Assembly: GCF_025602895.1 (NCBI RefSeq)
Contig: NW_026516218.1
Span: 806,001-870,000, forward strand
Length of the DNA: 64,000 bases
DNA from: Polychytrium aggregatum
Lineage: Eukaryota > Chytridiomycota > Chytridiomycetes > Polychytriales
Direction: 5' to 3'
In this document: positions 42,457 to 63,083 of the stretch, one piece after another
Numbering within the stretch: position 1 is the stretch's first letter
How the letters are laid out: every line of letters begins with the position of its first letter
The notes under the pieces: model-generated
Database searches by the model: none
What the model was told of the DNA's origin: nothing
Seen by the model: only the letters and a program-made list of their open reading frames with translations
Made by a program: the position numbers and the translations under genes

Positions 42457-45400
42457 TCAGTTGCGGCCAGTGCGGGTGACCACGCTGGTCTCGGGATACT
42501 TGATCTTGAAGGACGAAGACGGGTCCAGGGGATCGCCCAAGAAGCGAACGTGGTGCAGATAGCTGAGACACTTCTCGACGACCTCCTCCAGCGAGGGACA
42601 GGGAGTCGGGTAGATCGAGCGGGTGTTGGCGTTGTCGATCGTGAAGGACATGTCCATCATGATGTGCATGAGCGGGAACAGGGCGTTGCTCTCGACGGCG
42701 GGATGGGAGTGGAATGCCTCTTTGAACTGCTCGCGGGTCTCGAACAGGATCGGCCAGCCATGGTTCCTGACAATCTCAAACAGCCGGGTCTCGGAGAGGA
42801 CACTGTGGTGAGTGAGTGAGTGAGTGAGTGGGTGAGTGAGTAATCAGAGTCGGAATCCACCATCCACACCACATCGCACACCACATCGCACTTCACACCA
42901 CATCACACACTCCTCACCTGTGCTCCGAGTCGCTGATGTGGAACACAAACTTGGACAGGGCCTCCTCCGAGCCGGCAATCTCGGCAACCACCTTGGCGAC
43001 ATGGTCGACGGGATCCATGGTCATCGTGACGAGAGTGGCGTGCGAGGGAGCAACACCGAGCTGAATGCATCCCTTGACATATCGCCAGATGTAGTCATCA
43101 GAGTTGGACACTGGAGCGATGGAGGGTGTGAAGGCGTCAGTTGATGTCAGTTGGTGGATGAGTGGCACTTGACAATCGAGACCATCGATTCATGGCCAGT
43201 CCATGTGACGATTGAGACATCTGCACCACACCACACCACACCACACCACACCACACCACACCACACCACACCACACCACATCACATTCGACTCACCTCCG
43301 TACTGGCTGTCGCCGGCAATGACGGCTGGGCGAATGATCGTCGCAGGTACTCCCCTCGATCGTGCCTTGTTGACCAGCTGCTCAGAGACCCACTTGGTCT
43401 GGCCATACCCGCCAGAGATGTTCCAGGCCGAGTAGATCTTCTCCTCGAGCGGCTTGTCTGCCTTCTTGGCCATCGGGATCGTGCCGATGGTCGAGATGTA
43501 GTGCAGCGGCTTCAGGTGGTGGGTTGTGGCCAGTCTCAGGGCCGTCGCCGTGCCGAGGACGTTGGGTCCCCTGAGTCTGTCATAGTCAAACAGCCAGTGG
43601 ACCTCGGCGCCATTGTGGACAATCATGTCGGTCTCCTCGCTGATCTCCTTCCATCGCTCGTCCGAGAGTCCCCACTTGTCCTGCGACAGGTTGCCGCACA
43701 GTCCAACGAGTCGAGACTTGAGGTTGTGGTCAAGGAAGGCTCTCTGGCTCGGATCGAGGACCAACTTCTGAGCCGTGTTGATGATGCGGTCGATGGCGGC
43801 CTGCTCGGTCGGGGCTCGGACCAGGCAGTTGATCTTGGCCCGAGGGAACTTGTGTGCCAGCTCAAAGACCAGGAAGGCACCGAGGAAGCCAGTGGCACCG
43901 GTCAGGACGATGCCGCGAGGGTCCTTGGGATAGACAAACGGAGGGAGACCCTCGGCCGTCACACTCGCATCGTCGAGCTTGGCGGCCTCAGCAGCCAGAT
44001 CAACTGTCGGCGGAATCATCGGTCTGTCGTCGAGGATGTCGACAACCAACTGGGCGACATCAGTCGGTGTCATTCCGTTCGACAGCAAGATCAGCGGCGA
44101 GATCTCGACATTGAACTCGTCCTTGATGGCGAGGGCCAGACGGCCGACACTCAGCGAGTCAAAGCCGACGCCGCCGATGTAGTAGTTGCGGCCGTCGAGG
44201 GCGGGGTTGTCGATGATCTGGCTTCCAAGTGTGGAGATCTTGGCGGCAGTGCGGGACAGGGGAGTGTTGGCGAGTTTCAAACGAGGGTACTCGACCGACT
44301 TGCCGAACTGATCGACATTCTCGGCGATGCGCCTGAGCTTCTTGAGGTCGCGCTTGCCCGAGTCGTTGAAGGGGAACTCGTCGAGCTCGAAGCAGTTGTG
44401 GATCGGGAACTTGGCGACGTTCGTCAGCGCAAACATGTCCTCGGTCAGCTGCAGAAGCTCGGCAGGAGTGGGGTTGACCTGAGAGCCGCTTCTGCGGACA
44501 AAGAGCATCACGATCTTCTTCTCGGAGGTCTGGATGAAGGCACAGTCCGAGATGACCTTGGACATGTTTTCGTTGGCCAGCTCCTCGAGGGCGTTGAGGT
44601 CGACATAGACGCCGTTGACCTTGATCTTCTGGTCGAATCTGGAGTGATGGTGTGGAGTGAGGGAGTGGATGGCGTGAGTATCCGGGATACAGGAGTGGGA
44701 TGTGTCCTCAGGGTACCGGATGTGCACTCGCCATCAATGAGAGATGCAACACCCAGCCATTGACTCACCTTCCAACCACAGTGAACTGGTTCTCGCCAAC
44801 CATCTCGACCCAGTCCATGGTGCAGACACGGGGCGAGCCATCCTCAAGGAAGCCGAAGGGTGAGAGTTTGTTGTTTGGATCGGCATTGACAAAGTTGGGG
44901 TGGTTCTTGATGGGATGGTCCTTGTCGACGGCAAAGACGAGCACACCAGTCTTCGAGACCTTCTGGTCGACAATGTTGCCCTCCTCGTCAAAGAGGAGAC
45001 AGCGCACACCGGGTTTGACGAGCTTGTAGACCAGCTTATCAGGAACATCGCTGTTGGCTGGAAGGAATGCCACTGAGAGACCACCCACAAGCAGCGACTG
45101 ATGATCGAGATGGAGTGAGAAACAGCCTTTGTTCCGGAAAGTCATGTCAACCCAGATTTGGCTCTGCACTTACCTCACTGGATGCATAAGCAAGCTGAAG
45201 TTCAGCATTGGGGAAAACCTGTCTCGCACTCTGGACAACACTTGACGGAACGAGCTCGGAGCCGAGGCCGATGATTTTGGCGGCCGCCCACTCCACATCC
45301 GAGCGACCGGACTGGGCCATGCTGATGATCATCTTCATGAACGAGGGAGTCTGACCGATGAGAGTGACAGCACAATATCGTTCGTCAGCATCCATATCGT

Positions 45401-46948
45401 GAACGACTCCTCCGAGGCAGGTTGACAGCTTACCAGGTAGAGGTACCACACGCCATCATCCAGTGTCCGTATGATACTCTTGACCTTGTCGACAGTGTTG
45501 TGTGTTGGCTCAGGCATCCATAACGAGCCCTTCAGATTGAGCGTGCCGAGCAGCAAGGTCATTGTTGCCACAAACGATGGCGTCTGACGGCCACAGCGAT
45601 ATCATTGGTTACAAGGCCGAGTGTCGAGCCATCTGGGCTGCAAAGGTCGGCCATCTCACCTGACAGATCCCAGTCCTGATTCCGGCAAGACGGATGGAAT
45701 TTCGAATTGCGATTCCTCCGGTGTGCGAGAACTTGAAGCTGCATCGATGGATGCGAAACCCAAATGGGATCAGGTCGGGTGCTGAGGCTCCTCCACTGGG
45801 ATCCAGAGGCGAGAGTTCAAACATTGCAATATGTGATCAACTGTCTCAGGAAGACTCACGACTTGGGGATGCCTGTGGGATCGGCCCCGAGACAAGATGG
45901 ATCAGCGTCACGGATCGGAAATGCGTCGTCGACACAACATCATCCTCAGCCTTCCTGCTGTGACATCCACTCAGCCTGGCAGGTGTACCTGTTGTTCCGG
46001 AGGTGCATTGGATGGTCACAAACTCATCAAGCGGCCCACAGACATCGAGAGACGGGGACGGAATGCTGTCCAGCACCGGGAAGGTGGCGGCATCGATCAG
46101 CGTCACACCCTCGGTGCGGCCGGGTTTGGTGTGGTGGTGGAGAATGTACTTGGTCGCATGTCTGTCAGTTGGTGGTGAAGCGAGTGTCAGATCGGGATCG
46201 GGCATAGCTGGCCCGATTCAAACCTCGGACCAGCCTGCTCATCCTCACGACAACAGGACAGGGACATGCCTCTCGCACAGGGCCTTGCGGGCTGCAGGAG
46301 GCAGGTTGAGGGCAAAGTTGAGTGTTTTCCTGGATGGCAACAAGAGACAGGTGAGACTCGACCCTTGTCATGGAACGGAGCAAGGGTTGGGCATGTGATG
46401 TGGGTTGTGAATATCGCCTCGAACAAGCGACAACATCACAACATCACAACATCACAACATCACAACATCACAACATCACAACATCACAACATCACAACAT
46501 CACAACATCACAACATCACAACATCACAACACCACAACATCACAACATCCCACCAGACCAGCGACACTCACTTGCCCAGCATCCACACGGCGAGCGAGTC
46601 GATCACCCAGCTGGCTTCGGCCTCGCAGAAGGTGCCGATGACCTCGTGGTCGTCGTCGTCCCAGCCGGGAAGAGCCTTGAGAGCCTGGGCGACCGAGTAC
46701 GCCTGCTTCCACACACGGAGATAGCTGAGTCGCTCCGAGGCGCCGCTCTCGTAGGTGTTGATCAGGAGGGAATCGGGTTCGTCGCGGGCAGTGTTGACAA
46801 GACACTCGACGGGATGGAGCCAGGGGCCAAAGGGATCGAGCGGAGAAGGGAAGGTTGGCTGCTGGGAGACAGGGGTCTGCGACGAGACATCTCGGTCGCT
46901 GGATGGGACGGCGAGTCCCCCAAAGCAACAAGAGATTGCTCTGAGCAT
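42457..46948 (-). CDS. A-T-R adenylate-forming reductase (NRPS-like carboxylate reductase), 10 exons
   Basis: Exons: 46948-46572, 46329-46249, 46161-45976, 45738-45660, 45583-45434, 45350-45174, 45097-44769, 44638-43296, 43110-42918, 42802-42457. All junctions keep frame, giving 1,086 residues. The adenylation domain has TSGTTGTPASFKFSHTGG (A3, spliced through a GC-AG intron), RTGICQTPSF, AYASSE and FTVVGRFDQKIKVNG (A8-like). The carrier domain has GGVGFDSLSVG, with the phosphopantetheine Ser near residue 621. The reductase domain has VLTGATGFLG (NAD(P) binding, near 706), HYISTIGT and YGQTKWVSE (catalytic Tyr/Lys). Such enzymes activate a carboxylic acid as AMP ester, load it as thioester and reduce it to aldehyde. 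At this length it is not a normal LYS2 (~1,400). The substrate is unknown. The frame is also open upstream of the chosen ATG. Confidence 0.88.
42805..42842. repeat. GTGAGTGA microsatellite in an intron
   Basis: A run of GAGT units lies in the last intron of the A-T-R reductase gene. Confidence 0.9.
43223..43280. repeat. (CACAC)n pentamer repeat in an intron
   Basis: About eleven ACCAC units lie in the intron between the two main reductase-domain exons. Confidence 0.95.
46433..46552. repeat. CATCACAA tandem repeat in an intron
   Basis: About fourteen 8-base ACATCACA units lie in intron 1 of the A-T-R reductase gene. Confidence 0.95.
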
Positions 46949-47599
46949 GGCGGGGTTGGGTGAGGGAGTCAAGAGACGTTTGGTTCCAAAGACGTGCAGA
47001 TGAGGTCCAGAGAGTGAGGGAGAGCCAGAGGGCGAAAGCAGAGGGAAGGGAAAGCCGAAAGGAAAGGACAGACGCTTTCCCCCTGTCGGGTTGGCAAGCC
47101 AGGAGACGGCCTTGGTGTGGCCGTTCTGCCAGATTGCATCGTGAGTGCTGTTGTGTTCACTGGGCTGCTGAGTCTGCCGATGTGACTCTGTGCTTGGGCG
47201 GTGGATCTGGCTGGTTGTCTCCTCGATGCTGTGCTGTTGCCCTGCTCGGCAAGCCTGCTGTTCCAGCACTCGGCTGTTGGACAGTTCACTCAAGCTGACA
47301 TCGTCAGGCCGTTGGTGAGTGGTTTCTTTGGTGAGCAGCTCTGATTGTGGATATCGTGTCTTGTTCTGTCGAACCACCTCGATGCTCTGTCGGTCGACGC
47401 ACCCGCAGTCATGCTTCTCCATCAACTGCATTGCGATGGTAAGCTTCTGGACCGTTGTGGAGTGCAGTGTGGGAGCTGCCGATACCGACATTGGCCTTGC
47501 ATCTCGTCCTGCCATCTCATGAATCGCATCTTGCAGAACGATGGTGAGGGCCACCATGATCTTGCACTCGGGGTGTGGTTTGGGGTTGTGGATAGCGTT
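46949..47599. other. Upstream region of the A-T-R reductase
   Basis: The minus-strand frame of the reductase stays open up to 47557 with an ATG there, but the sequence is low-quality (Gln/Ser/His-rich, no domain), so I treat it as promoter or leader. A 5' exon cannot be excluded. Confidence 0.4.
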
Positions 47600-47843
47600 G
47601 CTGCTCGCCCAGGCTTCGTTCGACTCCCCTCATCCGAGACAGCAGAGCGGATGACATCAGGTTTGGAGAAGACGAGTGTCTGGCAAATGAATACGGGACG
47701 ACTGCCAGCTCTGATTCACCCGCATCTCGCAAGTTCTTCAACCTCTGCCAGCTGGAATCGGACCGAGACTGGTTGTGCAGATATTTCATTGCTGTGTGTC
47801 TATTTCATGGATTCGGGACCATCGAGGACCACAGCAGGTAGGC
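47600..47843 (+). pseudogene. Degenerate Sel1-repeat fragment, relative of the 48,970-50,127 gene in inverted orientation
   Basis: The plus strand encodes TPLIRDSRADDIRFGEDECL and later RKFFNLCQLESDRDWLCRYF then IAVCLFHGFGTIEDHSR. This is clearly related to TIRDNQSDDFKLGEDECL and KFFELCQSGSDRDWLCSHLM of the intact Sel1 gene 1.5 kb away. Upstream, the match decays (a shortened GRGTPLDKQ region) and no start is evident. A GT donor-like site follows the fragment. It is probably a decayed paralogue, though an exon of an unrecognised gene is possible. Confidence 0.65.
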
Positions 47844-48969
47844 AAGCTGCTGGACCTGCTCAGTTTCGATCGCACTCCCCCTCGCAGTCGCAACCCTCCC
47901 GCACTTGGATCACTTGTTGCTCATGTATCCGCTCCCCGCACTGCCTTCCGAGCATTCGCACTTGGTGCACACCCTGCACTAGCACCCACTCCCACACTCA
48001 GTGTAGTCCCACCCTTGCAGTCTCCCCCTGCACCCTCATCACAGCGTAGTATAGTGCCAGCATTTGCCACTCCACCACCCTGACCTCCCTTCGATCCTGC
48101 TGTTCCCTTGTGGGAACTGCTTGAAAATGTGTTGACCCGCTTGGTCTCTGACCTTGTGGGCAGCTGAGGCAGCACTAGGCTGCAACAGGAGTAAATAGGC
48201 TTGCCTGTGTACTCAACGTGCCGGGGGTACCAACCTGTTGAACCTGATGATTTGTCTTCTTGAATAAAGTTGACTATAGTAACAAATATAATCGAACATC
48301 TTCAGCGCTGGCCACGGGATGGATGGAGGGTAGGGTCATCTGATCACGGCGACTCTGGTGGGTGAATGATCAATTGCTCGCCAATGCGAGAGAGTATTCG
48401 AGAGACTGGTTGGCTCTGTCGACGATGATGGAGTGGTCAAGCCCTGCTGGCGATACGATGCGATGTGGTGCGACGGCCCGCGCCATGTATGTGGTTGGAA
48501 GGGGGGAGGTTTATGTGCCGAGAGGAACTGATCTGGTCGTGGGTCATGTCGGATCGAGGGAAGATGGTCTTGGTGTCGGGGAAGGCTGGTGGCTGGTGGC
48601 TTGCTGCCTGCTTTCTTCCTAACGATGAGGCGAGGGATGGTCTGGGTCGTGCTCATCATCTATGGCTGCAGAGCGGGTATCGATGAGTGAATGTTGATAA
48701 TGGCGTTTTCGAGTCATTCGATGGTTCTGTAAATCAATATGAGCAACGGATGTGGGACAGCACTCTTGTATATTGGATGTATTGAATGTATTGGGTGTAT
48801 TGGTTGCCAAATACAACATCACTCGGCCATTGCCACAACATCGGAATCACTTTGCGAGCTCACTCTTTGGTATCGCGCTGTCTGGGGTGGGTGTTGGTGC
48901 AGTTTGCTCGGCTGCTCTGGCCATAGGCTCGGTGATGATGATATGGCAGTTGGGAATGACAATCGATAA
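47844..48969. other. Intergenic, no gene seen
   Basis: It contains several ATTGGATGTATTGAATGTATTG-like short repeats (about 48770-48805) and no supported gene. Confidence 0.5.
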
Positions 48970-50127
48970 TCAGGGCCACTTGCCGAGATACTTGAGGGTG
49001 GTGATGGCATCTCTGTTTCCCTGGTCGGCGGACTGTTGCCACCAAAAGATGGCAGAATCAATGTCCTTGGGAACGCCGTCACCTTCATTGCGACACCAAC
49101 CAACCCAACACTGTCCGTACCGATTTCCCTGTTCAGCCGACTTGCTGAACCACTCGAATGCCTTTCTTCTGTCCTTGGCAACCCCGCGCCCATAGTAGTA
49201 GCATCGACCAACCCTCCACTGTCCATATGAGTTGTCTTGTTTGGTCGACTTGCTGTACCACTCAAACGCCCTCACCAAGTCCCGAGATACTCCATCGCCG
49301 TAATCGTAACTCATTCCGATCCACACCTGGCTGTCACTATGGCCGTCGTTGGCGAGTTGCTCGAAGGTTCTCGCTGCTCTCGTCTGGTCCTGGGTGGTTC
49401 CGAATCCATGAAACAGACACACAGCCATCAAGTGGCTGCAGAGCCAGTCTCGATCAGATCCCGACTGGCACAGTTCGAAGAACTTGTGGGCTGTGGGTGA
49501 TTCCGACTTGACATTGTTCCACCACTTGACAAGGCACTCGTCCTCCCCGAGCTTGAAGTCATCCGACTGGTTGTCGCGGATGGTCTTGATTCCATTCTGT
49601 TTGTCGAGGGGTGTGCCCCGGCCAAGATAGTGCATCCACCCGACCATGTGGGTGGCGATGGGCTTGAGAACCGGGTCGGTGGACTTGCTGCTGACTTCCT
49701 GCCAGAACCAAAGGGCGCGGCGGTCGTTCTTGACCATTCCTTCGCCCAGGAATGCGACCCAGGCCATCTGGAAGGACGCTTCGAGGTTGCCCCGTTCGGC
49801 GGCGGCCTTGAACAACTGAGCGGCGAGCTTCCACTCATTATGGTCGATCGGGAGACCCTCTGAGACCAACTTGGCAGCATCGAAACAAGCAGAGGGATCA
49901 CCTTGCTTGGCGCGAGAGACGAGTGAGTCAGGGAGGCGAGTGGCTGAGGAGTAGATGCCATCAAACTTGAACTTGGCAGAACGACTGGACCTGGACGAGG
50001 AGCAACTGTCCCTGTTGAGAGTGGCCGAGTCGCTGGCATGAAGGTCGACCGAAGAGGCCTCGATGGTGGAGAGAGGGGGAGGGACAGGGACTTCAGGGTC
50101 CGTGGGAACGAAGGCTTGGCTTGCCAT
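48970..50127 (-). CDS. Sel1-repeat protein
   Basis: Single exon, 385 residues from MASQAFVPTDPEV. The first ~65 residues are Ser-rich and disordered. About seven Sel1-like repeats follow: ACFDAAKLVSEG, ASFQMAWVAFLGEG, HMVGWMHYLGRG, LMAVCLFHGFG, SQVWIGMSYDYGDGVSRDLVRAFEWYSKS, GQWRVGRCYYYGRGVAKDRRKAFEWFSKSAE and GQCWVGWCRNEGDG. The last three are regular and nearly alike. There is no leader or membrane segment. Sel1 solenoids bind other proteins; the partner is unknown. A decayed inverted relative lies at 47,600-47,843. An open minus-strand frame at 50,140-50,495 upstream is not supported as a separate gene. Confidence 0.88.
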   Translation of the reverse strand: MASQAFVPTDPEVPVPPPLSTIEASSVDLHASDSATLNRDSCSSSRSSRSAKFKFDGIYSSATRLPDSLVSRAKQGDPSACFDAAKLVSEGLPIDHNEWKLAAQLFKAAAERGNLEASFQMAWVAFLGEGMVKNDRRALWFWQEVSSKSTDPVLKPIATHMVGWMHYLGRGTPLDKQNGIKTIRDNQSDDFKLGEDECLVKWWNNVKSESPTAHKFFELCQSGSDRDWLCSHLMAVCLFHGFGTTQDQTRAARTFEQLANDGHSDSQVWIGMSYDYGDGVSRDLVRAFEWYSKSTKQDNSYGQWRVGRCYYYGRGVAKDRRKAFEWFSKSAEQGNRYGQCWVGWCRNEGDGVPKDIDSAIFWWQQSADQGNRDAITTLKYLGKWP

Positions 50128-50519
50128 ATTGGAGCGATACGATGGACAGCGTCGAGTTCAAGTGAGAAGAGATAGGCGACAACGGTGAATGTCGATACCA
50201 CTTGATGGTGCTCGCTTGGGTCGGAGAAAGCCCTTTTCTCGGAGTGATGAGCGAAAACGGGCGGATACTCGTTTGGATGACGCAACATCACAGGGCGTTT
50301 CGGAGGATTGGGTCGGCTGGGGTCGTTGTTGATCTTCCAATCATACACAAGATGCTTTGATTGAGCCCATTGGGCAACATCTCGAATCAATATGCCGTGG
50401 CCTTGAAGTGGCTCGAATGAGCCAACCGCTACTGTATTCAGGGGGAAACGGGACACGCTCACCATCCCACATGCCAGCGTAGTATGCGATGGCATGCATA
50501 AAGCTCAGCCATAAGAAAC

Positions 50520-50790
50520 GGAACAGATCACTTTGGCAGCCTCCGAGTGAAGACCTCCAGTCGCTCTCCGGTCACCACAATCGACCTGCACACAGTGATC
50601 ATGCTGTTCTTGGACACATTGAAGATGGTGGCGACCTTGGTACTCTGCGGAGCAGCGAGTAGCATCGCAGTGCAGCGATGCGGAAATCGATGGTACTGCG
50701 TTTGGTCGTGACAAGCGATGAGTGGGTGGGTATTCAGGTTCCAGAAATAACATCAGTCCTGTCTCAAAACGAGTGTCCTATTTAGTTTTG
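50520..50790 (-). mobile_element. Degenerate Tc1/mariner-like transposase N-terminus
   Basis: The minus strand reads TTKRSTIDFRIAALRCYSLL and, after a frame change, STKVATIFNVSKNSMITV. This matches SDFRTAALRCYALIHSLRKV and ASIFSVSKSTIHRW of the element at 55 kb, i.e. the helix-turn-helix part. A terminal-repeat-like GGACACTCG lies just outside at about 50780 (minus strand). The DDE domain is absent. It is a relative, not a copy, of the Fanzor element's transposase. Confidence 0.7.
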
Positions 50791-51943
50791 AAACGCTCAA
50801 GAGATCCTCCCAGTTTGGGTAGTTGTTGAGAATGGCATCGACTGCCTCGTTGACGACAGGGCCTTTGCAGGGCGGCGCTGGTTCATGTCGTCACCGGGCC
50901 GCCACATCATCAGCGGGTTGTTCTCGGATGGCAGGGTGCAGTCCGTGAAGTAGTATAGGGGTATATCGGTGACTATACCGTTTTTGAGAGATGATGTAGA
51001 TGGGGAAAAACGGTATAGGCGTTAGGGTAGGGGTAGACGTGGGGTGGGGGCTGTGGAGGACGGTAGGGTTAGCGTAACCTAACGGAAGACGGGGTAGTCG
51101 TAGGGGTACGGCGGGGTAGGGGTAGATGATGTGGTTGGCGGGGGTGGTGGTAGGGGAGGACGGTAGGGTTGGGGTAGTTGGGGTGGATGTGGTAGTGGTG
51201 TTAGTGGTGGTAGTTGTGATATTTGTGGTATATGGTGTTTTATTGTGAGGGTTTAGGTTAGGTTAGGTTAGGTTTAGGTTAAGTGTGGTTGTGGTTGTCG
51301 TGGTAGTCGTGGTAGTCGTGATAGTCGTGATAGTTGTGGTGTTGTGGTAGTCGTGGTTGCTGTGGTTGCTGTGGTTGCTGTGATAGTAGTGGTAGTCGTG
51401 ATAGTAGTGGTAGTCGTGATAGTTGTGATCGTCGTGGTAGTCGTGGTAGTCATTGGGTTTGGACGTCCATCGGGTTTGGGGGGAATTCGTCCTCTTTTAT
51501 ATTTCTGTCGTCTGCTTGCGTGTGGCTTGGGTTTGTGTGGTCCGTGTGACTTGTGTTATCGGGGGCACAGTGTGGTAGATACCGTATCTGTTGGGTTCGT
51601 TGGAATTTGGTGTGGGATGTCGTCGAATGTGGAATATTGATATATCGTTGTTATTGTGGTTTGTTGATGGTTCCGTGGTATCCGTGCGCAGTTGTGTTTC
51701 ATGTCTGTTTGTGTGGTGTCCGTTGGGGTTGTGAGAATGGTGTTATCGGTGTGTATGTTCTGGGATGGTGGGTATTGTGGTTCGTGGTGTTGTTTGGTGC
51801 TGCGCTATCATCGTGGGCACTCGTCGATGGCAGATCTTTCTGCTTGGTCGAACATGGTGGTGCGTGAGGCTTTCAGGTCGCGTCTACATGGTCGTTGTGG
51901 GTTCATGTTGACGCTTGAGGAATAGCATATTGGTCGTACTGTA
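50791..51943. other. G-rich, low-complexity stretch with TTAGG repeats
   Basis: About 50,950-51,240 is strongly G/T-biased on the plus strand (GTAGGGGTAG-like words). Positions 51,251-51,280 hold repeated TTAGG/TTTAGG units, and 51,296-51,450 a GTGGTAGTC-type tandem repeat. No gene is supported. The Fanzor element is inserted at its right edge. Confidence 0.8.
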
Positions 51944-51973
51944 CAGTCAAACCAGAAAGAAACGGGACAGTCA
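51944..51973. repeat. Terminal inverted repeat, Fanzor-side end
   Basis: It begins CAGTCAAACCAG and contains AAACGGGACA. The last three bases (51971-51973) are the Fanzor stop codon on the minus strand. Confidence 0.92.
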
Positions 51974-54670
51974 CTTCCTGGCATCAGCGACACAGGTCTG
52001 CTGATCCGTAGACCCCAGTGGGCAGGTCGTGCGATTGTTTCCCGTCCTGGTTGGCAATCTCTTTGTTTTGGGTGGGTCCGGAAGCACAGTCTTGAATACA
52101 CCCGGTCGATCTCCTGTGGCGATGATCGACTGGCATACCGAGATCATATTCCTGGCTGCATTGATGTCTCGATCCCACAGCGTATGGCAGCTTGCACAGC
52201 TCCGGACAAAGTGTGGTTTCTCGACATCAAGATGCTCGACCTTCTCGAGTCGCTTGGCTTCCCGACAATGTGAGCACACCTGGGATGTGTTGAACTCGTT
52301 CACCGAGCACACATGGATCTTGGAGACGGATCGGTCTGGTGGGCCTCTCTGGTGGTGGTGGAACTGCTCAAAGTACTTGGCGAACCTGAGTCTCCTGGGA
52401 CTGGAAGCATATCCCTTCCCCTGTTTCCAGGATGCATTCCCAAAGGCAATCACCACTTCGGTCTCCCTTGGTGCCTGGTCAATGACTCGCTTGCACATCT
52501 CGTGGACGGTGCGCTGTCGCTTGCTGTGGAGATCGAGTCGCTTGAATCGCCGTCGCCGGGTCAGGTTGAAGTACAGCTGTTTGTCCAGCATGTCTCCATC
52601 GAACACATGGCGAATGTATCGCAAGAAGGAAGCCAACCCAGGGATCTTGGGACTTGGTGTGGTGCTCATCCATTGCTGCAGACCAAGGATCTTGTGGGTG
52701 CTCTGGATCCACTTGGTCGCTTGGGTGGTGCCAGTTCGATGCTGGTACTCCTTGTTGGAGAACGACACGATCTTCTCGTTGGCGCGCTGTGCCTTGGTCA
52801 CCTTGACACCGTCTTGCTCCTGGATGGATGGTTGACCGGGAGCTCGAATGACAGCGGTGAAGATCGATCCCACACCAGGGTCGATCCCGATCCATGTGGT
52901 CCGAGAGTCGTCAATGGGACCGACTCTGGCCTGGATCTTCTTCTCGAGAGTGAGCTTGGGTGTCTTATCGTCCTTGTCTGTGGTTTCTGGTTTGGCATCA
53001 GGATCCTTCTTCTTCAGAATCTTGTACCTGAGTGTGGTAATCGAGCACCCGACTCCATCGGTGGTGATCTCGCAACCAAAGAGCTGCTTTCCCTCCTTCC
53101 TGGCACCAAAGAGTCTCGGATCCAGCTTGAAGTTGGTCTGCCAGAAGGTCTCTTGCCTTGTGGTGCCATTGACCTTGGTCTTCAGGTCGTCCCACTTGAG
53201 TCCAGTGCCAGTCTGGTATCCAAGGATTTCCCACAGTGCTTTGGTGTCGAGCTTGACATACTTGGCTCGGGCATCGCAGAGCGGGACCAAGGTGCACTGT
53301 GCTCGAGGGACATTGTGTCGCTTCTTCGTCTGGGCAAGCCGGTCGGTGAGGCGCTTGATCCGCTTCATGTTCACAGCGATCTTCTTGTCCACCTCCTCGT
53401 GCTGGGTCTGGAGTGCGTTGTGTTGATCCAACTGCCTGCGTTCGATAGCGCGACACATCTCCTCGTTCAGTCGTCCGCGCTCTCCTTTCAGATCATCGGT
53501 ATCCCTCACGAGCCTGGGGATGATTCTGTTTCGAATGGTCGCCACGAACAGTGTCTCCTTTCGGTGGGTCAGCCGAGAGACTTCACTGGCCAATACTGGT
53601 ACGACTTGATACAGGTCCTGCTGGCTTTCGTACCGAAGCTCATACAACTGGTCGGCATGGTGGGCGAAGGATTTTCTCAGATCACCGAGGAGTGTCTTGG
53701 AGAGGGGATTCTCCATCAACTTGACACAGTTGTCGACGTGTGTGTGCCGTTTCACACCCTTGGGAGCAACCAGGACCAGATTGCAGAATCGGCGTAGAAG
53801 GGACCAATACCGATCGAGAATATGGGTCTCACAGTTGACGGCATAGGCCTTGTCAGCCAAACCAAGGACCTGTGAACCAGTGCCCTTTGGGAGGATTACA
53901 GGAGGTAGGGCACACGATCCACTCCATGTACTTCGATACAGCTCATAGGTGTCGAGGAGGTGCTTGTCTTCTTGGATCGTGCCATTCTTGACATCTGTAG
54001 CTCCGGTATGCACCATGTTGAAACACTTTCGAACGAACGAAGGGTCACTCGACGACACAGTGGGGATGGTGATGCCCTCGTCCAAGCATCGCCTGAGATG
54101 CAGCTCCAGGAGCCGAGATGCTTCGTACTGCACATGGGTCATGGCCCGGACAGTCTCCTCGATCTTGTCGTGCAAGGCGCCGTTCTTGATGATGGCGTCA
54201 AGAGTGCACTTGATGATCGAGTACTCGGCCTTGGCATACTCGTTTGGACCACAGTCGGGCTCGGTAGAGCTCCAAAGGGGGTTCTTTTTTGAACACAACG
54301 AGCTGCTGCTTCTGGCATGACCCTCTTCCCCACATGTGGTACATACAGGGACTTTTGGTGCAGGCGTCTCGACCACGAGGGCCGGAACGGCGATGTCTTC
54401 ACTGGACTCGTCTGGAGGGGGTGCTTGGCAAACGGCGCCAAAGGCAGACGCCGAGTCAGAAGGGGGGCCCAACTCGGTTCGGGCCTTGCATTTCTTGGTG
54501 AATGGCTTGACGTGGTTGGTCAATCCACAGGCACGACATGATTTGATGACGGGTTTTTTGGCAGCAGGTGCGTCACTGGGTTGTCCAGGATCTGGATTTG
54601 GGTCAGGCGGGGATTTTTTCTTGCGGGGAGCCATCTGTCGCGATTTCGACACCCCGCTGGTTCTACCCAT
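51971..54670 (-). CDS. Fanzor (TnpB-like, predicted RNA-guided nuclease), intact
   Basis: Uninterrupted 899 residues from the ATG at 54670. The N-terminus has basic runs (APRKKK) and two zinc knuckles with identical spacing C-x2-C-x4-H-x7-C (Cys45-Cys61 and Cys110-Cys126). The C-terminal third is the RuvC nuclease: GIDPGVGSIFT (Asp597), VVIAFGNASWKQGKG in place of the usual RuvC-II Glu motif, VNEFNTSQVCSHC (Glu792, candidate alternative Glu), a zinc ribbon CSHC...CASC, and DRDINAARN (Asp835). This pattern is that of Fanzor1, shown in Spizellomyces punctatus to be an RNA-guided DNA nuclease. The gene is intronless, on the same strand as the transposase, and its stop lies inside the terminal repeat. 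An alternative start is MAPRKKK at 54634. Activity and guide RNA are untested here. Confidence 0.93.
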   Translation of the reverse strand: MGRTSGVSKSRQMAPRKKKSPPDPNPDPGQPSDAPAAKKPVIKSCRACGLTNHVKPFTKKCKARTELGPPSDSASAFGAVCQAPPPDESSEDIAVPALVVETPAPKVPVCTTCGEEGHARSSSSLCSKKNPLWSSTEPDCGPNEYAKAEYSIIKCTLDAIIKNGALHDKIEETVRAMTHVQYEASRLLELHLRRCLDEGITIPTVSSSDPSFVRKCFNMVHTGATDVKNGTIQEDKHLLDTYELYRSTWSGSCALPPVILPKGTGSQVLGLADKAYAVNCETHILDRYWSLLRRFCNLVLVAPKGVKRHTHVDNCVKLMENPLSKTLLGDLRKSFAHHADQLYELRYESQQDLYQVVPVLASEVSRLTHRKETLFVATIRNRIIPRLVRDTDDLKGERGRLNEEMCRAIERRQLDQHNALQTQHEEVDKKIAVNMKRIKRLTDRLAQTKKRHNVPRAQCTLVPLCDARAKYVKLDTKALWEILGYQTGTGLKWDDLKTKVNGTTRQETFWQTNFKLDPRLFGARKEGKQLFGCEITTDGVGCSITTLRYKILKKKDPDAKPETTDKDDKTPKLTLEKKIQARVGPIDDSRTTWIGIDPGVGSIFTAVIRAPGQPSIQEQDGVKVTKAQRANEKIVSFSNKEYQHRTGTTQATKWIQSTHKILGLQQWMSTTPSPKIPGLASFLRYIRHVFDGDMLDKQLYFNLTRRRRFKRLDLHSKRQRTVHEMCKRVIDQAPRETEVVIAFGNASWKQGKGYASSPRRLRFAKYFEQFHHHQRGPPDRSVSKIHVCSVNEFNTSQVCSHCREAKRLEKVEHLDVEKPHFVRSCASCHTLWDRDINAARNMISVCQSIIATGDRPGVFKTVLPDPPKTKRLPTRTGNNRTTCPLGSTDQQTCVADARK

Positions 54671-54721
54671 AGGCAAGAAAAAACCAAGGGTGATTTTGAC
54701 GCACTTTTTCGATGGTATGAT

Positions 54722-55515
54722 TCACGCCCAGAAACACATCGCGCGCTCAATCAGCCGTGGGAAGACATCTGGAAGCACCCTCCGAACGGCAGACTCAAAC
54801 AGGGTCACCATCCCGACTCTGAACCCCTCGGACGCATTCAGCGCTGCTGCCTTCCTGTACTGATGCTTCACAATCCCAAAGAAGTTCTCGATGGGATTGA
54901 AGTCGGGCGAGGCAGGTGGGGTGAAGATCACTGACCATCCTCGGTGCTCGATGCAGTCCAGGACAGCCCTTGTCTTGTGCATGCTGACATTGTCCATCAC
55001 AATCACAGAGTCGTCTGGGAAGCACCCTTCGGTGAGTATCCGTAGAGAGGGAAAATGGATCTCCTGATCCCTGTCTCGTCGACAAAAACAAATCGCCGTC
55101 GGGGTCGATGGAGCGGACCCTGGTCCCTGAACTGTGCCACTCGCTCATCCAGTCGCTTGGACTTGTAGAGGTGTGTTGCCCTCTTGTGTGAGAGACCTGC
55201 TCGGTGGATGGCAGTGTGGCAGAGTGAGAGCGACACTTTCCTCTGGAGGATGGACTCGAGCTTGCATCGCAACACAGGACCAGTCTGGAACGGGTCCTGT
55301 TCAATCAGGGTGCGAATGACTGGACATGCCTGCTCGAAGAAAGTGGATCTGCGAGCCGGGACCCGGGATGGGTCATCCAGCTTGCATCCTCGGTGCCATC
55401 GATGGATGGTGCTCTTGGATACACTGAATATGGAGGCGACCTTACGCAGGCTATGGATGAGGGCGTAGCATCGCAATGCGGCGGTGCGAAAGTCGGATGT
55501 GTGGCGAATGGTCAT
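54722..55515 (-). pseudogene. Tc1/mariner-like DDE transposase, internally deleted and frameshifted
   Basis: The frame starts at ATG 55515 (MTIRHTSDFRTAALRCYALI) with a helix-turn-helix (ASIFSVSKSTIHRW). It reaches FVFVDETGIRRSIFPLYGYS (first catalytic Asp) and stops after PKGASQTTL. A second frame then gives SVIVMDNVSMHKT (second Asp) and SPDFNPIENFFG (third acidic residue) and ends at 54722. Only about 30 residues separate the first and second Asp, where this superfamily normally has roughly 85-95, so a segment of about 180 bp is missing and the frame is shifted. The enzyme should be dead. The longer upstream frame has only a TTG start. Confidence 0.9.
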
Positions 55516-55568
55516 GGTCAGCGCGCGATGGTTTTGGGTAACAAAATAATCGATCAATGGTCAAAACC

Positions 55569-56625: not shown

Positions 56626-59600
56626 TTACTCATCGACTGCTGTTCTTGCCACTTCGAAAGCGGCAGTGATGGCTGGTCGAGCTTCGATGTATCTGGCAAC
56701 CTCGGCTCGGATCTCTCGGGTGTTGAGGTAGATTGGCTGTGGTGGTAGGAGTGTTAGTTGAGGGACTGGAGGAGTGGTGACAAGTGGCTGGACTTACCAG
56801 GATGATGACTGGACGGTAGGGTGTTTCAAGGGACAAAATAGCAACCCCGTCGGATGGAGTGAAGACACGTTCCCTCCAATTATCAAAGAGGGAGTGTGGG
56901 ACCTTGGTGATGTGGATGCCATGGCGGATCCATTGGGGAGCGCTGCGTCGGTCGATTTCGGTCCACTGGGACGATGCATGTGGGTTGGATGCGGCGGTAA
57001 AGTTGGAGGGATCTTCGTCGGAGCGAACCCACTCGTCACCGCGACGGACCCAGAGGATTTGATTGCCACCCACGTCGCGAGACAGAATTGAGTTGCCATC
57101 GGGCGAGATCGCCACAGAGAACACATAGTCTGTGTGTCCCTCGAGGGTGTGCTTCACCTGGCCTGTGGTGGCATCCCACACCTTGATGGTCTTGTCCTCA
57201 GAGCCAGAGGCAATCCACTTGCCATCGGGTGAGATCGCCACAGAGTACACATAGAGTGTGTGTCCCTCGAGGGTGTGCTTTAACTGGCCGGTGGTGGCAT
57301 CCCACACCTTGATGGTCTTGTCCATAGAACCAGATACAATCCACTTGCTATCGGGTGAGATCGCCACAGAGTTCACACTTCTTGTGTGCCCCTCGAGGGT
57401 GTGCTTCACCTGGCCTGTGGTGGCATCCCACACCTTGATGGTCTCGTCCCCAGAGCCAGAGACGATCCACTTGCTATCGGGTGAGATCGCCACGGATCTC
57501 ACACTGCCTGTGTGCCCCTCGAGGGTGTGCTTCACCTGGCCTGTGGTGGCATCCCACACCTTGATGGTCTCGTCCCCAGAGCCAGAGACGATCCACTTGC
57601 TATCGGGTGAGATCGCCACAGAGTTCACACTTCTTGTGTGCCCCTCGAGGGTGTGCTTCAACTGGCCAGTCGTGGCATCCCACACCTTGATGGTCGTGTC
57701 CTCAGAGCCAGAGACAATCCACTTGCCATCGGGTGAGATCGCCACGGATCTCACACTGCCTGTGTGCCCCTCGAGGGTGTGCTTCACCTGGCCTGTGGTG
57801 GCATCCCACACCTTGATGGTCTTGTCCTCAGAGCCAGAGACAATCCACTTGCCATCGGGTGAGATCGCCACAGAGTTCACACTTCTTGTGTGTCCCTCGA
57901 GAGTGTGCTTCAACTGGCCAGTCGTGGAATCCCACACCTTGATGGTCTTGTCCTCAGAGCCAGAGACAATCCACTTGCCATCGGGTGAGATCGCCACAGA
58001 GTTCACACTTCTTGTGTGTCCCTCGAGAGTGTGCTTCACCTGGCCTGTGGTGGCATCCCACACCTTGATGGTATTGTTGTCACCAGAGCCAATAATTGAC
58101 CCGGACCCAGAGACAATCCACTTGCCATCGGGTGAGATCGCCACGGAGAACACAGTATTTGTGTGTCCCTCGAGGGTGTGCTTCAGCTGGCCTGTGGTGG
58201 CATCCCACACCTTGACGGTGTTGTCTTTGGAATCATGTGATCCAGAACCAGAGGCGATCCACTTGCCATCGGGCGAGATCGCCACAGAGTTCACATAGTC
58301 TCTATGCTCCGTAAGTGTCATCACACACGGATCCCAGGTGGGTGCTGGACCGCAAGTGACCAGGAACGGGATCTTGTCCTCGAGTTGGTCAGCATATGTC
58401 TTGTAGATCGCCGTCTCCTTCGGTGTGAATGCATATCCCGAGTTGTACACCTGTGGTGCACTCTTGATGATCGGGTCGGCAAATTCGCGGATGAATCGAT
58501 ACGTGTCCTTGACCAGTTCCTTCGTGGTGTCGTCGACGATGGTGCTGGGTGCCTTGGCGATCACTCCTCGCAGCACAGCCAGTTGCTCGGCAATCTCCTG
58601 AATACGATGTGTGAGTGACCCACACTCGAGCCAGTGGAACACATGGGTCGACATGAATTGGGTGAGAGACGGGGCCAATTCTTCGAAGGATTGTGTCTCA
58701 AAGGGACCATCCAACTCAACACCATTGACCTTGGTACCCTCAATCAGATGGGTGACCCAGTGGGCGACGCTGTATCGCAGCGACGGTGTGATGGTTTTGT
58801 TAACCCTGTCCTCGAGGTCTGGGATCTTGTCGTGAAAGTCGAAGATCTCGCAGATGTTGACCACTGGCTCGTGCGAGAGGATCACACCGAGACATCCCTT
58901 GGCAAACACCGTGTGGAACGAGCTCGACACATGCCATGGCTCATTCTTGGACTCGTCGCCGAGGAGATAGTCCGCCACCGACTTGTGGTTGAACTTGACC
59001 TCGCCATCGTCGGTGGATCCGTTGGCACCAGGAGCGAGAACCAAGTTGAGACTCCTCAGGCATTCGTGAACTATGCGGAGTGCATATCCCTCGGCCACGT
59101 TGCGGAAGAAGACCCCGGAAATCATATTGGGCGTGAGGATGGTCTGCGATGTGGCGATAGCCGAGATCACGGTGATCAGTTCGCCCTTACGGCTCGACCC
59201 GGAGTGGATCTTGGTGAATGTGATCCCGTAGAGCTGCTTGACATCAGTGGCACTGTCATTGAGCTCCCTGATCTTGGTGAGTGTGATGGCTTCGCTCTTG
59301 GCCTGCTCCTTGAGCGTGTTAAGGATCAGGTTGATCCACACGAATGTCTTGGATTTGTCATCGTCAGCCGAATCCTTGGTATCAGCTGGCTTTCCATGTT
59401 CATTCGACTGAGCCGGGTTGTGGAGGATGATCTCGATGGCCTGATCTCTATCGACCTCGGTGAGTCCCTTGTGCTCGTTGGTGAGTCGGTGTCTGATGAA
59501 TACCCTCAAGTCGGCGATATTCTCATCGCTCGAGGGCTCGATTGTTTTGGCATTCACTCCATGGAATGCTGCCTTGATGTCGTCCTCGGGACGAGATGTC

Positions 59601-62254
59601 AGCAGCAGCTTGAGCCACGGACGGGTCTTGTTCAGCTCGACGAACCGCCAGGCAAGCAGACTGAGCAGCTGGTCGCGTGGAGAGCACTCGTCGAGTGCAT
59701 CCACCAGGATCATCACCGATCCCTTGGGTCTGTATTTGCCGATGGCCTCGAGTGGATCGGCAATCACAGCCTTGAACAACTCGGGGATGGGCATCTTGTC
59801 GAGACTGTCCTTGGAGTGGCCAGCATCGAGCAGCTTGCGGCCAATCGGGGCATACCACTGGCACAGGCCGTATGCGATCGTGCTCAGCACGGCCCGCGGA
59901 TCGCTCTTGCGGGTGTCGTTGTACTTGAGGAACAGCGCCGACACCAGCTGGTTCTTGCCCCGGAGGAAGCTGGCCAGCTTGGCTGCGGCAACAGACTTGC
60001 CCACACCAGCAACGGCATTCACCCACAGGACAGTGTCTTTGGTGTCTTCGTTGACCCAGTGAGTGACTTGGTCGAACAGCCACTGGCGGGTACCCTCGAC
60101 ATACAGATCCTCAAGGTCGTGCTGGTCCTGGGTCGAGTCGACGGGATCGAGGAGGGATCGCAGGAGCGAGTCTTGTTCGGCGGTGAGGACGACACTGCCG
60201 CCTTGTGTGTACACGTCGCCCTCCTTGGCGGCAGTGGAAGTCTTTGTTATGAGCTCGTGAATATTGGGCACTAGTCTGTCGAATATCAAGAGTGTGAGAT
60301 TGTATCGATAACATGATATACAACAGTGATACGCTTACCTCCGCAGTGCGTTTCCGTCCGAGGCATCAAGAGCCTGTAGCTTCATCAGCTCGGCAAAAGT
60401 TTCACGGATCGACATTGGCTTCCCATCGAACAACGGGCTCTTCTCGTGGATCGGAGGGTAGTCAGGGAGCTCTTTGATGGGCGGGAAGTACTTCTTCTGG
60501 AATGTCTCGCCATCGATCTCTTTTGAATACCACATGAAAATTGGCTGGATGGTAACGGGGTTGCCACTCTTCTCGCCATCCTTCATTCTCTTGAGAGCGT
60601 GCTGGATCTATAGACACAATGGATGTGAGACTGCGAGTTTGAGGGTAAAGAGGGAGAAGTGAAGATACGTACCTCGAGAAATTGATTGTCTTTCTCATTG
60701 TGCGCGTTGTAGGTTTGATCGAGTCCAGCCTCGGAGAGAACTAGGACAATCACGTCCGATTGGTAGAGACCATTGATGAAACCTTGTTCCCAGGGCATGC
60801 CGTCACAGAGACAGAGACTGTCGAGATAGGGATGAAGTGCCATTTGGCCTCGCGGAGTGACAGCGAGGGTTCCATGCAGGGCAGTCGCATTGCTGGCGTC
60901 ACTACGGACTCGGTAACTGTGGGGGCACATGTTAGCTGGGTGAAATGACGTGGTTGCGAACGAATCACCGCTTACCTGATGAAGACGTCGTGCTTCACAT
61001 AGTGTGTTTTGCACTTCCAATTCTGGGTCGGTTCTGCCGGAGTGTACTCGCTTGGATCCAGGAGACGTTTGGGCGGAACAATAGTGGGTTTGGAAGGTTT
61101 TGTTGGCTCCTTTGGTTTATCGAGTCTGGGTGAACCATGCTTTTGTTGTGCAATTTTGAGTTTCATGATGGCACCATCATTCAGGCCGACCTTGGCAATC
61201 TGGATATCATCGAGAGCAAGGAGCTGTGGAGTGCAAGGGTCAGTAACGCACTTGGTTGATTCTATGGATGGTAAAGGATACCTACCACATCGACGGTGTC
61301 GTAATCGCGTTCCTCAAAACGGCCTTTGAATTTAGTGAGTCCGTTGTCCTCAAGGAATTTATGGAACGTATTCGAAGTATTGCGTAGTGGCTCCTCGTCT
61401 GAGGCAGTTGCTTGGATAGGCTCTGTCTGAATGATATCGTTGACACTGGTTTGGTAATCTGGTGGTGGAGATGTCAGAATGTTGTCCAGGGGCGTTTCAT
61501 CACCCTCCACTTTGATATCCGATTTGGGTTGGGGAGTGGCTTCTTTGTCTTCAGTAACATTTGTTTGCTGGATAGTGGAAGTGGATGCTGGTGCCGGATT
61601 GGAACTGGAGGGGGAGGCAAGAGCTTGACGATGCCTTTCCTGCGCATTCTTGAGGGTTTTGATATGACCAATCTTCAAGCCAATATCCTTCATCTCTTTG
61701 CCATCTAAGGTGAGGAGCTATGGTGCACACGTTAGCAATGCGGGTCAAAGTACCGAGGATTGGAGCCGAGATCAAGCTTACTAATTCGATAGAATTCAAT
61801 CCGTTTTCGATGAAGCAATCTCTTTGCTCATTGAGGCCATATTTCTTAAGGAATTCATCAAATTCTTTAGACTCCTCTGTCAATTCGGTCTCTTCGTCTT
61901 CATTAGAGGTCCTAGCGGTTTTGGATTGAATGTCGCCGGGTTCCTTGGTGTTAACTTGGGGGGTGTCATCTTTGGATCGAATGAATGAAAGTCAGATCAC
62001 ATGACAAACCAATCCAATTCGAACCACACTGGATCCGTGGCTCGATCCACGATCACTCCGATGACGGGGGTTCGATTCCCGACATCGCCATTTTACCGAG
62101 AAGTCGTCCTGGTTTATCTCCAATCCACGACCATTATTGTTCAGAATCGATTCAGCAATCAACGACACTGACCTGGTGCTTGTTTCTTCTGGTGCAACCA
62201 CCAGAGGGACAGCAGTCCAACGAGGGCTGATATGACGATGATCCTTTGGAGCAT
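56626..62254 (-). CDS. Membrane-anchored SAM-SAM-TIR-NACHT-WD40 receptor (STAND NTPase), 8 exons
   Basis: Exons: 62254-62173, 61969-61782, 61717-61286, 61223-60976, 60916-60673, 60607-60339, 60275-56798, 56736-56626, all in frame, 1,683 residues. Residues 1-25 (MLQRIIVISALVGLLSLWWL) form a signal anchor. SAM 1 is near 63-115 (FDEFLKKYGLNEQRDCFIEN) and SAM 2 near 205-262 (FHKFLEDNGLTKFKGRFEER). TIR starts HDVFISYR near 312 and includes CDGMPWEQGFINGLYQSDVI and KDNQFLEIQHAL; Glu398 aligns with the SARM1 NADase Glu. NACHT has VAGVGKS (578-582) and MILVDALDEC (Walker B). From ~1140 to ~1570 lie ten WD40 repeats, mostly SVAISPDGKWIVSGS...TIKVWDATTGQ. Predicted role: ligand-triggered oligomerisation activating TIR, i.e. 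immunity, regulated cell death or non-self recognition (inference from NLRs and SARM1). Confidence 0.88.
57118..58300. repeat. ~126-bp tandem repeat encoding the WD40 blades
   Basis: Nine consecutive units of 126 bp or slightly more are nearly identical at the DNA level and encode 42-residue WD40 repeats. The differences cluster at a few codons, such as the two residues after GHT and the EDK/GDE/EDT/MDK triplet. Confidence 0.95.
62045..62095 (+). tRNA. tRNA-like remnant (B box only) in the receptor's first intron
   Basis: The plus strand has a consensus RNA polymerase III B box (GGTTCGATTCC at 62069-62079), a tRNA-like 3' end (CATCGCCA) and then TTTT. No matching 5' acceptor strand or A box is visible upstream, so this is not a complete tRNA. 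It could be a tRNA-derived fragment or SINE piece. Confidence 0.3.
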
Positions 62255-62618
62255 CGTGGATGAGATCAGGGCGATGGGGGAAAAGGGAGGACCGGGGGTT
62301 GGGTGGATGCTTTATACTCCCCATCCCCGGGTGGATTGGGGACCCGAGCCCCCAAACTCGGCCAGAGTCGCGCGATGCGAAAGGGGAAGGACGGACGCCA
62401 TCGACAAAGCAAAATGTAAAACACCTCGTCAAGTCGGATACAACGGTAAATGTCTGTGGATGGCGATAAGCTATCGAGCCGCACAGCACGAGCCTGCTGC
62501 GCTGACAGGCGGTGCCACAGGCATGGCACAAGCTGCGCGCGAACCCGATTGGATAGAATGGCCGGGCATCAAAGGCCGACTTGGGCTCGGAGAGGGAGCG
62601 AGGGAAGCAAAGATCCGT
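62255..62618. other. Intergenic, probable receptor promoter
   Basis: The region lies directly upstream of the SAM-SAM-TIR-NACHT-WD40 start. No gene is supported. Confidence 0.45.
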
Positions 62619-63083
62619 TCAAGATAAGACTTGTCTCGAAATGAGACGTGAGGAACACTCAGAGAATAACGTAGAAGGCACTTTATTTAGTCCTATTTTG
62701 AACGCTGAGGTTCGACTACACATCGCGGGGGTCAGGCTATTTACAGGCAAGCCCGGACTAGGCAGCGATGGGCAGCCAAGGGATGGAAAAGTGGGCGATC
62801 GAGCAGGGCGGTGCTTCTCAAGCCAGAGCCGGAATCGGTTCACTTTGGTGTCCAAAATGAAGTTTGCCTGCTTGCATACCAGTCGCAGATTCCCGATAAC
62901 TGTGAGTGGAAGGGAGAACTGGAAAGAGTCGTTGCAGCATATGATGGTGAAGATGTCGGGGACAAGGCCCCGATGAACCGGCTGGACAGGGTTGAGGTTC
63001 GCGGGGCTTGTACCCGCACCGGCTAAGGCGAGGGCTCGACGGGTCTGCGAGCGGGTCACTCGGCGCTCAGGAGGGCTCGCCAT
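62619..63083 (-). CDS. Hypothetical protein, weakly F-box-like
   Basis: An open frame of 154 residues from MASPPERRVTRSQTRRALAL. The segment LVPDIFTIICCNDSFQFSLPLTVIGNLRLVCKQANFILDT has the hydrophobic pattern of an F-box-type start (L-P-x-I-F ... LRLVCK), but the motif is not convincing enough to name. The C-terminal part is Pro/Ser-rich. No intron is visible. It lies between the receptor and a Sel1-like gene, on the same strand. Confidence 0.45.
   Translation of the reverse strand: MASPPERRVTRSQTRRALALAGAGTSPANLNPVQPVHRGLVPDIFTIICCNDSFQFSLPLTVIGNLRLVCKQANFILDTKVNRFRLWLEKHRPARSPTFPSLGCPSLPSPGLPVNSLTPAMCSRTSAFKIGLNKVPSTLFSECSSRLISRQVLS

Follow-up and report, generated by a model that had tools for sequence, protein, structure and literature searches.

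Plant TIR-NB-ARC-LRR receptors (TNLs) combine a TIR effector with an NTPase switch of the STAND class (signal transduction ATPases with numerous domains) and a repeat sensor. For fungi, the available parts of earlier studies establish the occurrence of NOD-like receptors (NLRs), a kinship between HET and TIR domains, internal conservation of the sensor repeats and diversification of the propellers (PMC4986451, PMC12222747, PMC1805685). The accessible text of a 2014 survey reports no NLR in chytrids (PMC4986451), and a 2025 survey lists Chytridiomycota species with one NLR upward (PMC12258605). Excerpts of two further studies attribute NACHT-WD40 genes of Mortierellomycota to endosymbiont transfer (PMC11291939) and mention TIR domains in Chytridiomycota NLRs as well as a SAM_Ste50p annotation at the N-termini of fungal NLRs (PMC9815663). 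For SARM1, the available parts of PMC7282519 report that Glu642 is required for NAD+ hydrolysis and that the SARM1 SAM domains, when fused to plant TIR domains, enable NADase activity and cell death. Here we analyse a gene that joins these elements in the order SAM-SAM-TIR-NACHT-WD40. It lies on the minus strand at positions 62254-56626 of a 64,000-nucleotide stretch of DNA (C68:806001-870000, in the following the window). A sequence-only reading of the window had proposed this gene as a membrane-anchored fungal receptor.

Architecture of the gene

Eight exons, separated by seven GT..AG introns, join to a frame without internal stop that encodes 1,683 amino acids followed by a stop codon. Exon 7 (56798..60275) holds a NACHT-type NTPase, a post-NACHT region and ten WD40 repeats. 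Pfam assigned the NTPase to NPHP3_N (NACHT type) at 1.4e-27 over residues 549-716 (approximately 60094-59591), which include a Walker A motif GVGKS and a Walker B motif ILVDALDE. The WD40 family was matched in ten stretches (2.9e-132), corresponding to a putative sensor at 57030..58312 with a repeat unit of 42 residues. For this whole-protein scan, 25 of the 64 matching families were listed. A phmmer search with the NACHT part returned only three antibody chance matches.

In the same protein SAM_1 was matched in two stretches (6.5e-10). Exon 2 (61782..61969) encodes a linker and the N-terminal half of SAM1, with SAM_1 and SAM_2 matches. Exon 3 (61286..61717) continues with the C-terminal half of SAM1 (~61717-61634), an acidic and proline-containing linker and the N-terminal half of SAM2 (~61375-61286). 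The C-terminal half of SAM2 is found in exon 4 (60976..61223), followed by a linker and the first TIR strand (HDVFI). Exon 5 (60673..60916) provides the TIR core (YRVRS ... VLVLSE ... DNQFLE) and ends with the codon of Glu398, while the C-terminal part of the TIR (IQHAL...IQPIFMW) and an extension towards the NACHT are encoded by exon 6 (60339..60607). Exon 8 (56626..56736) contributes the C-terminal tail PIYLNTREIRAEVARYIEARPAITAAFEVARTAVDE and the stop codon. The tail has no Pfam match, and no Pfam family was matched in the C-terminal 113 residues.

Exon 1 (62173..62254) encodes MLQRIIVISALVGLLSLWWLHQKKQAP, in which two lysines follow a short hydrophobic segment. Its maximum mean hydropathy over 19 residues is 1.83, which is borderline. 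The same peptide is also encoded in the copies of the gene on contigs C57 and C301. From the hydropathy an N-terminal signal anchor is plausible.

The frame of exon 7 has its first Met at frame residue 180, downstream of the Walker A motif at 109. With no Met ahead of Walker A, the NACHT-WD40 part lacks an ATG start of its own there. Further support for a continuous gene comes from the splice dinucleotides of related genes (see below), which we compared at eight junction sides from the start of exon 3 to the end of exon 6; exon 1 was compared in C57 and C301. The AG acceptor was present at the start of exon 3 in 24/24 rows, of exon 4 in 34/34, of exon 5 in 37/38 (the exception being L024) and of exon 6 in 38/38. 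The GT donor was present at the end of exon 3 in 11/11 rows, of exons 4 and 5 in 36/36 each and of exon 6 in 32/32. These rows include the gene itself (L003), haplotype copies and the twice-read loci L004/L066 and L005/L067. The eight in-frame exons, their coordinates and the 1,683 residues of the sequence-only reading proved exact, with canonical splice sites, and its domain order agrees with Pfam and with family profiles. Hidden Markov models recognised the two SAM domains, the NACHT and the ten WD40 repeats directly; the TIR was below the cut-off when taken alone and was recognised via the profile of its family. Of the proposed membrane anchor the hydrophobic first exon holds, and the anchoring itself stays a prediction with borderline hydropathy.

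A family of paralogs

The genome of 64.7 Mb (418 contigs) contains the flagellar Radial_spoke_3 domain together with Fungal_trans, the domain of fungal-specific transcription factors, which together point to a flagellated fungus, and this fits the fungal origin that had been assumed. A search with the N-terminal half and the NACHT residues of the protein found at least 66 NACHT places on 50 contigs, including this gene. The family PF24883 gave at least 106 genome matches, and at least 90 of these score 86 bits or higher. Several loci are paired with equal scores, and Radial_spoke_3 likewise occurs on two contigs with equal scores. Both haplotypes therefore seem to be assembled, such that the haploid number is perhaps half. 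With dozens of paralogs, the idea of a lone oddity of unique architecture was rejected. Most of the listed NACHT places have an open frame longer than 1,000 residues, and some copies have short frames, e.g. 349-375 residues. The NACHT-WD40 frames of L013, L014 and L017 are also shorter (821 residues).

Among the 66 listed loci we read 35 (L001-L030, L061-L065). In 35/35 a TIR sequence lies upstream of the NACHT in the same orientation; the TIR of L028 is partial, and L065 has no match to exon 6. The N-terminal architectures were judged by eye for 16 loci from the three frames of the coding strand. L001 carries an anchor, a SAM and the TIR. In L018, L022, L029 and L030 a Met stands just before a single SAM, and in L015 and L065 the TIR comes without a recognisable SAM in the DNA examined. 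In a separate comparison with the gene, L012, L013, L014 and L017 had both of its SAM segments, and L007 only the second. Both the tandem SAM and the anchor are thus confined to a subset of the family.

The SAM domains were further characterised with a profile built from 14 SAMs of the family, all of which are interrupted by an intron at the same position. Its best structural match was the tandem-SAM protein Caskin-1 (1.8e-12), and other SAM domains were also matched. SAM_1 was found at E <= 0.1 in 13/14 family SAMs. By these matches the segments are real SAM domains and not specifically of the SARM1 kind. SAM1 and SAM2 of the gene have intron position and phase in common, suggesting that a single SAM unit was duplicated. 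A six-frame genome search with PF00536 gave seven matches, none of them at a listed NACHT place, presumably because introns split the SAM.

Over approximately 1.2 kb of upstream DNA, the SAM and TIR parts and most of the NACHT, the C57 and C301 copies have 95-100% identity to the gene, except that C57 falls to 79% in 59500-59251 (66 gapped columns); within the gene, SAM-TIR-NACHT is for the most part 96-100% identical among the three copies. From approximately 59000 downward through the WD40 part, every 250-base window but one is 84-92% identical, with 85-91% for the WD40 stretch as such, and the 3' end returns to approximately 97%. L007 is likewise a patchwork at the protein level: SAM2 and the NACHT block are 100% identical to those of the gene and the TIR exon 99%, with 54% in the linker after SAM2 and 76% in exon 6. 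Gene conversion or recombination between paralogs would be expected to leave such a mosaic of exon blocks.

For the gene compared with eight paralogs, the ratio of replacement to silent changes per site (pN/pS, pairwise values that are mutually non-independent and do not come from a codon model) was 0.15-0.44 in exon 5, 0.15-0.44 in exon 6 and 0.15-0.46 in the NACHT part. In exons 3-4, i.e. the SAMs and their linkers, it was 0.40-0.81. The SAM exons thus seem to be coding yet less constrained.

Two pairs of family members are arranged head-to-head at distances of 10-12 kb (C57:815119/826243 and C179:600448/613251), an orientation also known for paired TIR receptors of plants. In L040, L042 and L043 a single long exon encodes TIR-like sequence together with an NTPase of the NB-ARC type. 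Pfam was run for L042 only, giving NB-ARC at 6.4e-6 and TIR_2 at 1.6e-4, the latter below the cut-off. In this genome TIR is thus combined with NTPases of both STAND classes.

The TIR domain and its catalytic column

TIR_2 was matched at E <= 0.01 in 14/14 sampled family TIRs, with a best value of 1.3e-8. Searching PDB with a profile made from 14 TIRs of the family (alignment A1) gave SARM1 as the best match (3.3e-7); the best matches other than SARM1 were an uncharacterised protein (0.013), TcpB (0.014) and plant Roq1 (0.15). It is this family profile, and not the score of the single protein, that settles the identity of the domain. The pairwise identity to the SARM1 TIR stretch is 34%.

Residues 561-648 of the SARM1 chain 7knq_A (724 residues) align with profile positions 11-104. 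In this alignment SARM1 Glu642 corresponds to profile position 98 and thus to Glu398 of the gene. The Glu398 column is invariant in A1. In a larger set of 45 stitched rows it is Glu in all 41 that have a letter there; L048 and L049 diverge. NAD cleavage by the TIR can reasonably be inferred.

Glu360 had also been considered as catalytic residue, which was rejected given that the 7knq_A numbering places Glu642 at column 398. Column 360 corresponds to SARM1 residue 604; of the 45 rows, 39 have Glu there, 4 have Ala and 2 have His. The rows with Ala or His are L012, L013, L014, L017, L048 and L049. This variation has no bearing on catalysis, and the idea of catalytically dead members, which was based on column 360, was dropped.

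Other searches with the TIR returned little. Phmmer with the single TIR against PDB gave only one chance ribosomal match, and NCBIfam matched neither the TIR nor the NACHT. A six-frame genome search gave 0 matches for PF01582 and, for PF13676, 38 places at E <= 1, nine of them above the cut-off. The TIR of the gene is not listed among the latter, presumably as its coding sequence is interrupted by introns. When bacterial and archaeal genomes were scanned with the TIR alignment, 35 stretches were matched by one peptide pattern, none of which was confirmed; on this weak evidence a close bacterial source of the TIR was rejected.

Diversification of the WD40 propeller

Across the seven full-length standard WD40 repeats of the gene, 33 of the 42 repeat positions are invariant. 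Variation occurs mainly at repeat positions 5, 6, 8, 24 and 26. The entropy sum at positions 6, 8, 24 and 26 was reached by only 4 of 111,930 four-column sets. Between three close copies, pN/pS at these four positions was 1.92, compared to 0.17 at the 35 positions that remain when the seven variable positions known from the literature are set aside. In the HNWD proteins, according to the available parts of PMC2873952 and PMC1805685, codons 7, 9, 25 and 27 are under diversifying selection and map to the top face of the propeller, in its d-a loop and b-c turn. Positions 6, 8, 24 and 26 share this spacing, where the register was taken from spacing and flanking residues and not from an alignment with HET-E. 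Top-face residues thus apparently diversify between repeats as well as between paralogs.

The nearest relative of a repeat was found in the same gene for 20/25 repeats when comparing three genes and for 32/56 when comparing six, values reached in 0/500 shuffles each. Mean repeat identity was similar within genes (0.888) and between them (0.877).

Genomic setting

Contig C377 matches the window at 98-99% over 40509-50948 and then diverges into DNA that partly derives from mobile elements. Within the next 8 kb of C377 no SAM, TIR or NACHT of the receptor family was detectable. At this place the gene may therefore occur in one haplotype only. Between the break and the gene, at 51971-55560 on the minus strand, lies a 916-residue Fanzor-like frame with a Cas12f1-like TNB domain (1.3e-9), directly adjoining two overlapping frames of a DDE_3 transposase. 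This Fanzor-like/DDE element is multi-copy, with several copies 92-95% identical over approximately 3 kb, and its transposase part is also found on C377.

On the other side of the gene, a 240-bp repeat (62571-62810) recurs at approximately 95% identity in at least 28 further places. Genes or remnants related to a Sel1-repeat protein are found at 62811-62993 and 48976-49959, and also adjoin L040, L046, L047, L064, L066 and L067. They may be there by chance, stemming from a large family, or represent a linked partner. Intron 1 contains on the plus strand, at ~62020-62094, a sequence resembling a tRNA T-arm (GGGGGTTCGATTCCC...CGCCA). There ARAGORN made no more than two calls under relaxed settings, both weak and on the opposite strand, and none in a stricter run. 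With its bacterial setting ARAGORN reported no tRNA.

Discussion

The gene probably encodes an intracellular STAND/NLR receptor of a flagellated fungus, in which the WD40 repeats would act as sensor, the NACHT as switch and the TIR, clustered by the SAM domains, as effector that cleaves NAD+ or a related nucleotide. The diversifying propeller would bind a molecule of a partner or an invader. Upon recognition the NACHT would exchange its nucleotide and oligomerise, and the SAM domains would bring the TIR domains together. Assembled TIRs with their catalytic-type Glu398 could then act on NAD+ or a related nucleotide, either by cleaving it or by generating a cyclic product, and this activity would lead to cell death or to a signal, as part of a putative role in defence or non-self recognition. 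Through the hydrophobic exon 1, the subset of the family to which the gene belongs is probably tethered to an internal membrane.

Several observations weigh against this proposal. The TIR of the single protein reached only 1.4e-4 and 22.8 bits with TIR_2, where the Pfam cut-off is 28. At the Glu398 column, L028 breaks off before the residue, and L025 appears to have Gly, its near-identical partner L027 having Glu. The 14-SAM profile matched the SAMs of SARM1 weakly (0.012); with Caskin as best match, a ring assembly like that of SARM1 is unsupported by sequence. When seven genes instead of three are counted, pN/pS at the four propeller positions is 1.22, compared to 0.24 elsewhere, such that the excess weakens as divergence grows. 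Four residues before Glu642 SARM1 has a Trp, which we take to be an active-site residue, and 42/42 family rows have Asn in its place, so that substrate or activity may differ. This exchange also favours an alternative in which the TIR is an adaptor and not an enzyme: a filament or ring of SAM-TIR units would recruit a separate executioner, similar to animal TIR adaptors. SAM domains are often polymer-forming modules, and the tandem-SAM protein Caskin is the best structural match of those found here. Such a scaffold, however, hardly accounts for the Glu kept in the catalytic column of all readable rows, for TIR exons that are among the more constrained parts of the gene, or for SARM1, the best structural relative, being an NADase (available parts of PMC7282519). 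We regard it as unlikely.

Alternatives that concern the gene or the family as a whole appear weaker. Copies may have been duplicated recently, be decaying or be carried by transposons, spreading with mobile DNA while few are used. The multi-copy Fanzor-like/DDE element next to the gene, the divergence of the allelic contig C377 at 50948 with no gene in the following 8 kb and the short frames of some copies fit this idea. Yet most listed NACHT places keep frames above 1,000 residues, splice sites are conserved, pN/pS is low in TIR and NACHT, and replacement-rich change is confined mainly to a few propeller positions, which makes a largely unused family improbable. Least probable is that SAM-SAM-TIR and NACHT-WD40 are two adjacent genes mistaken for one. 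A separation between exons 6 and 7 is conceivable in principle, and the comparison of splice sites across the family ended with the exon 6 donor. Against this stand the missing Met ahead of Walker A, the GT donor of exon 6 in every row and the same co-linear order at all NACHT loci read. A SAM/TIR gene apart from the NACHT-WD40 exon was accordingly rejected.

More tentatively, the receptor proposal can be extended: a cassette of the SARM1 type, i.e. anchor, tandem SAM and NAD+-cleaving TIR, might serve as effector of a large NLR repertoire of a flagellated fungus, its exon blocks being reassorted by conversion and its WD40 repeats diversifying at the face used for allorecognition in Podospora. 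If true, SAM-TIR death signalling would predate animals or have been rebuilt independently outside them, and a rapidly diversifying NLR immune system would exist near the base of the fungi, with TIR-based cell death and rapidly evolving sensors combined early. In any case a large receptor family is present where few such genes were expected, in a flagellated fungus, apparently diversifying and with an effector that resembles SARM1. NADase activity, membrane targeting and propeller diversification are directly testable.

Regarding the unusual combination, the sequence-only reading was right in that we found no prior description of it or of the expansion, though subscription literature was mostly uncovered and absence is unproven; as one of dozens of paralogs the gene is no lone case. 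In its available text PMC9815663 states the occurrence of TIR domains in chytrid NLRs and describes neither a tandem SAM-TIR-NACHT-WD40 protein nor a large flagellated-fungus family.

Among known systems, the HNWD proteins of Podospora anserina (HET-E, HET-D, HET-R) share with the gene the NACHT and internally conserved WD40 repeats, the spacing of the variation (codons 7, 9, 25 and 27 as published; 6, 8, 24 and 26 here), repeats whose nearest relatives lie within the same gene and a repeat number that varies between copies. The proposed kinship with NACHT-WD40 proteins of the HET-E/HNWD type is thereby upheld at the level of repeat conservation and variable positions. HNWD proteins, however, carry a HET domain, whereas here SAM-SAM-TIR, a possible anchor and several introns are found in a flagellated fungus. 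In Pfam the N-terminal pieces matched SAM families and TIR_2 and no HET; a genome search for HET also gave no match, with a control that itself matched nowhere. For lack of a HET domain, strict HNWD membership was rejected.

With SARM1 the gene shares a tandem SAM followed by a TIR, the best PDB match of the TIR, Glu398 in the Glu642 column and an N-terminal targeting segment, which in SARM1 is a mitochondrial sequence (PMC8494770). In contrast to SARM1, the TIR sits inside the protein ahead of NACHT-WD40, Asn replaces Trp and the SAMs are not specifically SARM1-like. No ARM domain was found in residues 1-302, where only SAM_1 and SAM_2 exceed the Pfam cut-offs. Membership in SARM1 was rejected on account of the missing ARM and the SAMs.

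Plant TNLs resemble the gene in their TIR effector, STAND NTPase switch and repeat sensor (available parts of PMC7282519) but use NB-ARC and LRR, where the gene has NACHT and WD40 with added SAMs. The natural order SAM-TIR-NACHT mirrors the laboratory fusions of SARM1 SAM domains to plant TIRs described in the accessible text of the same study.

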